64,000 bases of DNA from an uncultured SAR86 cluster bacterium (GTDB taxonomy: Bacteria; Pseudomonadota; Gammaproteobacteria; Magnimaribacterales; Magnimaribacteraceae), in NCBI GenBank assembly GCA_902542325.1, contig CACBUE010000004.1, forward strand, positions 1 to 64,000, read 5' to 3'. Made by a program: the position numbers and the translations under genes. Shown piece after piece: positions 16,057 to 18,566 of this stretch. The stretch's first letter is position 1. Each line of letters starts with the position of its first letter. The notes beneath the pieces were generated by a model that searched no databases, had not been told where the DNA came from, and worked only from the letters and a program-made list of their open reading frames with translations.

Positions 16057-16790
16057 AGACAAAGATAATTGCTCATAGAGGTGCATCAGAAGATGCACCC
16101 GAAAACTCCATTTCGGCTTTTAAAGAGGCCTTCAAGCAGCAAGCTGATGGAATAGAACTAGATGTAAGACTAACTGCTGATAAGCGCATTGTTTGTTTCC
16201 ATGATAAATCGGCTATGCGCACAACCGGCTTCGATAAAAACATAGATGAAGCTACTTTTATGGAACTTCGGTCCTTAGATTGTTCTTACGGTTTTGAAAA
16301 GGTTTGGAAAACCGAAAAAATACCTGAAATCAAAGAAGTTTTTTCGATCCTTCCTCACAATAAAGATATATTTATAGAAGTAAAAACTAAGGAGGTTATT
16401 GTCCCCTACCTACTTCAAGAAATAGAAAGTCAGAAAGTAGCTTTAGACCAAATAACTGTCATAAGTTTTTATCCTGAGGTTATACGACGCATTAAAGAAC
16501 ATAATGTAAATATTAAATGTAATCTATTAATAGCTTTTGATTACGAAAATATTAAGACGAATAAGATAGAGGAAATTATTAAATCAATCGGAGCGGACGG
16601 TCTTGGAGCTCAAAATCATAAAAGATTTAATAATGAACTTATTCAAATGCTAAGGAATTTTAATAAATCCGTTCATGTCTGGACAGTTAACTCAGCAGAT
16701 GACGCAGAAGATTATTTTAAAAAGGGTGTAGACTCTATCACTACGAATAGACCTTATTTTTTGAGAAATCACTTAAAAAAGATGAAATAA
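16047..16790 (+). CDS. Glycerophosphodiester phosphodiesterase, non-standard start
   Basis: Hydrolyses glycerophosphodiesters to glycerol 3-phosphate and an alcohol. The full catalytic N-terminus is encoded: [24 protein letters not shown] and VCFHD. It lies upstream of the first ATG (16215), which would remove it. Between the in-frame stop at 16005 and the HRG motif there is no ATG, GTG or TTG. I placed the start at CTG 16047, which gives [12 protein letters not shown] and overlaps nrdB by 10 bp; ATA 16065 or ATT 16068 are other options. C-terminal motifs ([14 protein letters not shown]) fit the family. It could be translated by coupling from nrdB. Confidence 0.8.
16080..16099 (+). repeat. 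Perfect inverted repeat at the glycerophosphodiesterase start
   Basis: GGTGCATC-AGAA-GATGCACC has an 8 bp perfect stem and a 4 nt loop. It lies 24 bp after the nrdB stop, inside the codons for the HRG motif of the next gene. There is no U-tract, so it is not a classical terminator. It could stabilise the nrdAB message end or affect initiation of the next gene. Confidence 0.6.
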
Positions 16791-17210: not shown

Positions 17211-18566
17211 ATGGAATCTTCTAAAACGGTAGGTATAACAGAGGTAGTCTTAAGAGATGGTATACAGTCTTTGTTGGCAACTAGGGTACCTTTAAGAGAT
17301 CTAGTTTCAATTCTTCCAACTTTAGATAAGGTGGGTTATTGGTCGCTTGAAACCTGGGGGGGAGCTACTTATGATTCCTGCATCAGATACCTCAATGAAG
17401 ACCCATGGGAAAGATTAAGAACCTTTAACTCTCTATTAAAGAACACACCACAGCAAATGCTAATTCGTGGCCAAAATCTCGTTGGTTACAAACATTACTC
17501 AAACAGAGTAGTATCGAATTTTCTAGAAAAATCGGCAGAAAATGGGATAGAGATTTTCAGAACTTTTGATGCGTTAAATGATTTCGAAAATATTGATTTC
17601 ACAATCAGAGAAGTAAAGAGAATAGGTAAGCATGCACAAGGAACAATAGCTTACACAACAAGTCCTGTTCATGATTTAAATACTTGGTTAGATCTAGCGA
17701 AAAAAATAGAAGATGCGGGAGCAGATTCTCTGGCAATTAAAGATATGGCGGGCCTACTTAGGCCCTTTGATGCTTATGAGCTAGTAAAGAATTTAAAAAA
17801 CACCTTATCCATTCCAATCCATATGCAAACACATGCCACTACCGGTATGTCCACTGCTACAAATATGAAAGCCATAGAAGCAGGAATAGATAATATCGAT
17901 ACTTCTATATCCTCCTTAAGCATGACTTATGGTCATACTGCCACAGAAACTATGTTAGCAATTTTTGAAAATCAAGAAAGGGAAATAAATCTGGATTTAA
18001 GTGCCTTAGAAGAAGTTTCTATATTTTTTAAAGAAATAAGAGATAAATATTCTGAATTTGAGGGAAATCTTAAGGGAGTTGACTCTTCAATGTTGGTAAA
18101 ACAAGTCCCTGGAGGAATGTTGTCAAATCTAGAATCTCAATTAAGAGCTAATAAACAAGAAGATAAGATAGATCTGGTCAAAGACGAAATACCTAAGGTT
18201 AGGAAAGATTTTGGATATCCCCCTCTGGTAACACCAGCATCGCAAATTGTGGGGGCTCAAGCTCTCCTCAATATTATGAGCAGCAGAAGATATGAGAATT
18301 TATCCAATGAGTCTCTAAACTTAATTCTTGGTAAATATGGAAAACTTCCTGGAGAGATAGAACCTGACCTTTTGAGAAGAGCTGAATCAATTGGTGTTGA
18401 TAGCGATAGTTATGATGAAAATGAAATAGACATTATGGCGACTGAATTGAAAGATTTATGCAGTAATAACGGATTACCTGATTTAAGCGAGAAGATCGAA
18501 ATGCTGTTAACTTATATTATGTTTCCTAATATCGCACTTCCCTTTTTCAAAGAGTTGGATATTTGA
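17211..18566 (+). CDS. Carboxyltransferase-domain protein (OadA / pyruvate carboxylase B-like) without biotin domain
   Basis: Homologue of the carboxyltransferase domain of oxaloacetate decarboxylase alpha, pyruvate carboxylase and transcarboxylase 5S. 451 residues; it ends before any biotinyl domain. Family motifs WSLETWGGATYD, NEDPWERLR, RGQNLVGY, FDALND and AIKDMAGLL (with the carbamylated Lys) are clear. Two conserved histidines are altered: RDGHQS reads RDGIQS, and the metal-binding HxHxH strand reads HMQTHATTG, placing Gln where a metal ligand His is expected. No biotin carboxylase or carrier gene is near. Activity may differ from biotin-dependent carboxyl transfer. Confidence 0.8.
   Translation: MESSKTVGITEVVLRDGIQSLLATRVPLRDLVSILPTLDKVGYWSLETWGGATYDSCIRYLNEDPWERLRTFNSLLKNTPQQMLIRGQNLVGYKHYSNRVVSNFLEKSAENGIEIFRTFDALNDFENIDFTIREVKRIGKHAQGTIAYTTSPVHDLNTWLDLAKKIEDAGADSLAIKDMAGLLRPFDAYELVKNLKNTLSIPIHMQTHATTGMSTATNMKAIEAGIDNIDTSISSLSMTYGHTATETMLAIFENQEREINLDLSALEEVSIFFKEIRDKYSEFEGNLKGVDSSMLVKQVPGGMLSNLESQLRANKQEDKIDLVKDEIPKVRKDFGYPPLVTPASQIVGAQALLNIMSSRRYENLSNESLNLILGKYGKLPGEIEPDLLRRAESIGVDSDSYDENEIDIMATELKDLCSNNGLPDLSEKIEMLLTYIMFPNIALPFFKELDI

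Follow-up and report, generated by a model that had tools for sequence, protein, structure and literature searches.

A short OadA-type carboxyltransferase of SAR86 bacteria that lacks a biotin domain and may be a biotin-free oxaloacetate decarboxylase

The closest described systems and the SAR86 protein

Transcarboxylase 5S works with a separate biotin carrier, and in split OadA/OadD systems the biotin carrier is OadD. The oad operon of Enterococcus faecalis contains both oadB and oadD (excerpt of PMC3198936). In the scheme given for oxaloacetate decarboxylase (OAD), the C4 carboxyl of oxaloacetate passes first to an active-site lysine and then to biotin; Lys178 of the Vibrio cholerae enzyme is discussed in the same excerpt (PMC2881705). 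The excerpt of the review PMC8100219 distinguishes four or more kinds of dedicated oxaloacetate decarboxylase and also mentions an E. faecalis OAD variant active in soluble form. Soluble decarboxylases that use no biotin are covered there too: that of C. glutamicum, the PEP mutase/isocitrate lyase enzyme of P. aeruginosa, and malic-enzyme types. An OadA that has shed biotin is not among the types described in that excerpt, and we found no account of a biotin-less SAR86 OadA, or of a glutamine metal ligand, in the open-access literature searched.

The window analyzed here is a 64,000-nucleotide stretch of DNA from an uncultured SAR86 cluster bacterium (GCA_902542325.1, contig CACBUE010000004.1). 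On its plus strand, it encodes a short OadA-type carboxyltransferase (CT) without a biotin domain (17211-18566, stop codon included), which has an ATG start and a length of 451 aa. Pfam assigns to this protein an HMGL-like domain and the PYC_OADA (funnel) domain (residues 296-448; 18096-18554, plus strand), and detects no biotin domain; the early stop and the missing domain reported in the first-pass annotation are therefore real features of the open reading frame. Among the 24 NCBIfam models listed, PRK09282 (pyruvate carboxylase subunit B) is the only one that exceeds its cut-off. The OadA profiles of NCBIfam are 582-595 positions long and are matched by the window protein only to about position 440-452. 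The solved structures nearest to it by phmmer are those of the V. cholerae OadA CT domain, the two-subunit pyruvate carboxylase of M. flagellatus, and 5S. The AlphaFold model has a mean pLDDT of 82.7 and a pTM of 0.86, with pLDDT below 50 near the active site (residues 15-21, 209-211, and 234-242); among the best eight structural matches listed, 1rqb, 1rqh, 2nx9, and 5ks8 align with TM scores of 0.85-0.91 by query length.

The protein can be compared with several known systems. It shares with the V. cholerae OadA CT (2nx9) the barrel and funnel and the metal, substrate, and biotin-pocket positions (model TM 0.91), but unlike OadA it carries no biotin domain, ends at the funnel, has the histidine of RDxHQS replaced, and comes from a genome in which oadB was not found. 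As a free-standing CT of similar length it resembles Propionibacterium transcarboxylase 5S (1rqb; TM 0.90), yet 5S keeps the RDxHQS histidine that the window form lacks, and no dedicated carrier was found for the latter. In length and CT fold it is also like PRK12331, PRK12581, and PRK14041, models of 465-468 aa for split or two-subunit systems, although it scores below their cut-offs. In contrast to the E. faecalis oad system, neither oadB nor oadD was found with the window gene, and, unlike in two-subunit pyruvate carboxylase (PycB), there is no biotin domain borne by the CT and no biotin carboxylase beside the gene. The soluble biotin-free decarboxylases would share with it solubility and the proposed net reaction, but belong to other protein families (excerpt of PMC8100219). 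The short form has the CT features of OadA and lacks its biotin domain and OadB, and no dedicated carrier was found for it in the genomes searched.

The neighborhood offers no such partner either: no oadB, biotin carboxylase, or carrier gene was found beside the CT gene, as the first-pass annotation had stated for the latter two. We take the neighbors, named by eye, to be GDPD-like, rhodanese-like, TauD-like, and MFS genes. The next gene lies on the other strand and begins one base past the CT stop. We rejected a frameshift or nonsense artifact for this reason and because full-length short matches occur in 92 SAR86 genomes; a length class shared this widely means that the length of the window protein does not reflect a local sequencing error. 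Separately, the frame of the GDPD-like gene (16057-16790 of the window) has its first ATG at 16215, which is preceded by an HRG...EN stretch, and holds no ATG, GTG, or TTG before that stretch; the same is seen at loci L039 and L043. In the window, this gene may use a rare start codon just past the stop of the preceding gene (16056).

Active-site residues and the metal position

The phmmer alignment of the window protein with 2nx9 is ungapped from query residue 3 to 392, and each 2nx9 residue is numbered one higher than its query counterpart. The motif RDGIQS (residues 15-20; 17253-17270, plus strand) contains R15, the metal residue D16, I18, and Q19, with I18 aligned to the histidine of biotinylated OadA. 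The motif IKDMAG (17736-17753, plus strand) contains K177, equivalent to the carbamyl lysine Lys178 of V. cholerae OAD. Both D16 and K177 are kept relative to 2nx9 and 5S, and the alignment agrees with the earlier reading that RDGHQS is altered while the carbamyl-lysine motif is conserved. In HMQTHATTG (17820-17846, plus strand), which starts with H204 at 17820, Q206 (17826-17828) stands opposite the first and H208 (17832-17834) opposite the second histidine of the HxH pair of 2nx9 and 5S.

The pyruvate carboxylase (PC) of L. lactis provides a reference for these positions. Its cation ligands are Asp534, carboxy-Lys703, His732, and His734, while Arg606 contacts the substrate, Thr867 acts in transfer, and Ser870 touches biotin (excerpt of PMC9581989). 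The spacings of this site match those of D16, K177, Q206, H208, R86, T341, and S344 in the window protein, including an identical 29-residue distance from the lysine to the first histidine; T341 and S344 (18231-18242, plus strand) are the equivalents of Thr867 and Ser870.

The first-pass annotation had placed the glutamine at a metal ligand, which these alignments uphold, and had taken it as one sign of a changed reaction, which they do not. We examined 74 non-SAR86 OadA loci, found with a short-form profile and chosen by similarity rather than as a census, in which a biotin domain was recognized by a short motif pattern located past residue 450. Of the 74, 44 have Gln and 30 have His at position 206, and 42 of the 44 Gln206 loci have both the biotin motif and oadB in the flank. 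A separate class outgroup set has Gln206 in 12 of 28 loci, and oadB flanks 10 of the 12 (24/28 for the set overall); Gln206 also occurs in four of the 12 SAR86 long rows. Nor is the change fixed in the short-form clade, where 36 of 49 rows have Gln and 13 have His. As judged from the alignments, Gln206 is at a true metal-ligand position, yet is ordinary in biotinylated, oadB-linked OadA, and we rejected it as a sign of a new reaction. We likewise rejected H204 as a stand-in ligand, because Ala204 and Gln206 coexist in loci with the biotin motif and oadB. Gammaproteobacterial OadA often has a glutamine at this metal position, and its presence should not be taken as lost or changed function.

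Distribution, descent, and selection of the short form

A CT match was found in 141 of the 203 genomes of the order, with long frames of 581-599 aa in 43, short frames of about 450-490 aa in 92, and fragments in six. The oadB gene is present in 45 genomes of the order, namely all 43 with the long form and two (G060, G064) with fragments and no CT match; it was found in none of the 92 short-form genomes, the window's own among them. Outside SAR86, the biotin motif is present in 71 of the 74 loci, the other three running off contig ends. In a class sample of 369 genomes, full-length short forms occur only in SAR86 genomes among the matches listed; a partial CT match in a frame of 443 aa was seen in one genome (G464). 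Family f4 has no CT match in its 21 genomes, and in G029 the CT gene is in two pieces split by an in-frame TGA.

A tree that included 28 outgroup rows separates the SAR86 sequences from these (100/98) and unites their short forms in one clade (100/100) with a stem of 0.56, sister to the long SAR86 OadA. It thus gives no support for repeated, independent loss of the biotin domain within SAR86. Families f1 and f3 contain both forms, while nearly every genome with a match has just one; therefore transfer between families, or an old duplication followed by differential loss, is required. By eye and among the matches listed, a GDPD-like gene adjoins five long loci (L047, L048, L049, L057, L073) and lies beside or near four short ones (the window, L039, L043, L050); we saw none at the short loci L046, L054, L055, and L056 or at the long locus L058.

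The short forms are under purifying selection: dN/dS was 0.069, 0.048, 0.037, 0.068, and 0.046 in the five usable pairs of the eight computed (dS up to 1.85), the other three being saturated. The 40 biotinylated rows share 146 invariant positions; 103 of them are conserved in 90% or more of the 49 short rows. R15, D16, Q19, R86, K177, H208, T341, S344, and Q345 are present in every one of the 49. The histidine of RDxHQS (His18) is replaced in most short rows, by Ile (22 rows), Gln (13), or Asn (10), and remains in only four, all of genus g2. By comparison, 39 of the 40 long and outgroup rows and 72 of the 74 non-SAR86 loci retain this histidine. Ser occupies the position in one long form (G156), and Asn or Ser does so in two non-SAR86 loci that have the biotin motif and oadB, which counts against a strict link between His18 and biotin. 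Seven residues are lost in all 49 short rows (G62, R293, I294, T305, Q314, V352, and E375), and E375 is invariant in the 40 biotinylated rows. The loop 897-900 of L. lactis PC binds the carrier (excerpt of PMC9581989); E375 adjoins its approximate equivalent, residues 371-374, which was extrapolated to just past the end of the L. lactis PC alignment.

Two further observations concern the short forms themselves. Those of genus g9 (f2) and of f3 (L029, L054, L055, L056) have a common C-terminal tail of about 15 aa, LQExxGF-like, that is absent from the window form. A single-contig genome of the window's genus (G176) encodes a CT 97% identical to that of the window, and the cultured SAR86 strain HIMB1674 has a closed 1.6-Mb genome (excerpt of PMC11582366).

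Biotin carriers and the proposed reaction

We searched 14 chosen genomes, 10 of them short-form, with biotin/lipoyl family profiles. Nine of the 10 short-form genomes have one match in a frame below 250 aa (148-206 aa), which lies beside accC, adjacency being taken from match coordinates that were not all listed for the weaker AccC matches; the tenth (G093, a single contig with a short CT gene) has no match of carrier size. All remaining matches fall in frames above 300 aa: a 640-655-aa protein in most genomes, a 1125-1133-aa frame in G151 and G176, and putative biotin or lipoyl proteins in frames of 316-452 aa. From their size and neighborhood, we infer that the 640-655-aa matches are acyl-CoA carboxylase chains. 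No dedicated biotin carrier was found in the 10 short-form genomes.

In the window's own assembly (completeness 89%), matches of AccA and AccD size are present, but no AccC-type match and no biotin-domain match above cut-off, so that the search for carriers suggested earlier was negative there as well. This is likely an assembly gap, because an AccC-type match is present in 193 of the 203 genomes of the order and AccC is found in relatives with 97-99% identical CT. We therefore set aside a loss of all biotin enzymes in this species as less likely than a gap, though it is odd that all are absent.

Our best explanation, to which we give a probability of about 45%, is that the short CT is a soluble core that would convert oxaloacetate to pyruvate without biotin or Na+ pumping. 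One SAR86 OadA lineage has shed everything past the CT barrel and funnel, the biotin domain included, and no oadB was found in its genomes. Oxaloacetate would bind a metal held by D16, carbamylated K177, Q206, and H208, with R86 on the substrate, and would give up its C4 carboxyl in the manner of the first OadA half-reaction. Because the OAD scheme puts the lysine before biotin, we propose that the carboxyl is then released as CO2, directly or via a K177 carbamate, rather than passed to biotin; the net reaction would split oxaloacetate into pyruvate and CO2 with no coupling to Na+ transport. We infer the substrate, the metal, the biotin independence, and the physiological role of the short CT.

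This biotin-free decarboxylase is favored by the distribution of oadB (43/43 long, 0/92 short), the single clade, dN/dS of 0.037-0.069, the retained catalytic residues, the loss of His18 in 45 of 49 and of E375 in 49 of 49 short rows, and the failure to find a dedicated carrier. To this extent the changed reaction suggested from the first reading is plausible as a changed mode, given that the biotin-domain loss is clade-wide. Malic enzyme (PF03949) was not found in any of the 203 genomes of the order at E 1e-20, a search in which 12 of 14 controls were positive, and a route from C4 acids to pyruvate would therefore be useful. However, ATP-PEPCK is present in 180 of the 203 genomes and f4 has no CT match in its 21 genomes, so that the route is not indispensable, which counts against the decarboxylase. 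The invariant Thr and Ser of the biotin pocket, needless in a biotin-free enzyme, also count against it, as do the short forms of g2 with their RDxHQS histidine, the Ser of G156, and the two biotinylated loci with Asn or Ser. Isolated CT domains, moreover, decarboxylate oxaloacetate poorly without biotin.

The same Thr and Ser, invariant in 49 of 49 short rows, are the strongest point for the main rival explanation, which we consider unlikely and in which the short CT would depend in trans on the biotin of another carboxylase, such as the 640-655-aa acyl-CoA carboxylase-like alpha chain or AccB. Borrowing would fit with the presence among the closest structures of 5S, which works with a separate carrier, and with the 640-655-aa biotin-domain protein that adjoins a carboxyl_trans subunit in G006, G027, G093, and G176. 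However, 5S keeps its RDxHQS histidine while using a carrier in trans, and the loss of this residue and of E375 argues most strongly against borrowing. The 640-643-aa class is also found in four long-form genomes (G073, G089, G136, G163) and hence is no dedicated partner, and AccB is no universal one, given that G093 has the short gene and no match of carrier size. A related reading, which we hold to be quite improbable, makes the short CT a free-standing transcarboxylase that would move the carboxyl of oxaloacetate to the biotin of an acyl-CoA carboxylase. Oxaloacetate, not ATP, would then pay for acyl-CoA carboxylation; in some of these bacteria no accABCD was found.

A switch of substrate to a different 2-oxo acid, with aldolase or lyase activity as elsewhere in the HMGL-like superfamily, was anticipated from the first reading and seems to us rather improbable. 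The long stem branch (0.56) and the 43 of 146 biotinylated-invariant positions that fall below 90% in the short rows would suit such a shift, but R15, D16, Q19, R86, K177, and H208 are all kept, Gln206 is ordinary, and the neighborhood gives no pathway hint; with the substrate residues retained, an aldolase-like activity gains no direct support. Least probable of all is a non-catalytic structural or regulatory leftover in the course of loss from streamlined genomes, as the split gene of G029 and the 21 genomes of f4 without a match might suggest, because dN/dS is low in all five usable pairs and the catalytic residues are fully kept in the 49 short rows.

If the short CT is indeed a biotin-free decarboxylase, an OadA retained by selection after loss of the pump and the prosthetic group would illustrate how a transferase that relies on biotin can turn into a simple decarboxylase. 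It would also provide a route from C4 acids to pyruvate in bacteria where no malic enzyme was found. SAR86 bacteria are common in the sea, and the loss of pump and biotin in the short-form lineage hints at a simpler, uncoupled reaction.

Two minor observations were made on the biotin and acyl-CoA carboxylase genes. Four f2 genomes (G006, G015, G022, G027) have an AccB-size frame and a 640-650-aa frame plus at most one weak biotin/lipoyl match (357-367 aa), and no lipoyl-type E2 of 2-oxo acid dehydrogenases was seen in these four. In seven other SAR86 genomes (G093, G105, G109, G113, G115, G120, G121), we observed one weak AccC-type match each (E 6e-132 to 2e-159), one carboxyl_trans match of 552-580 aa, and no AccA- or AccD-size match; G094 and G101, which belong to the same genus (g19), differ in this respect. 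A FabD match remains in each of the seven (below cut-off in three), and acetyl-CoA carboxylase may have been replaced by acyl-CoA carboxylase in these genomes.
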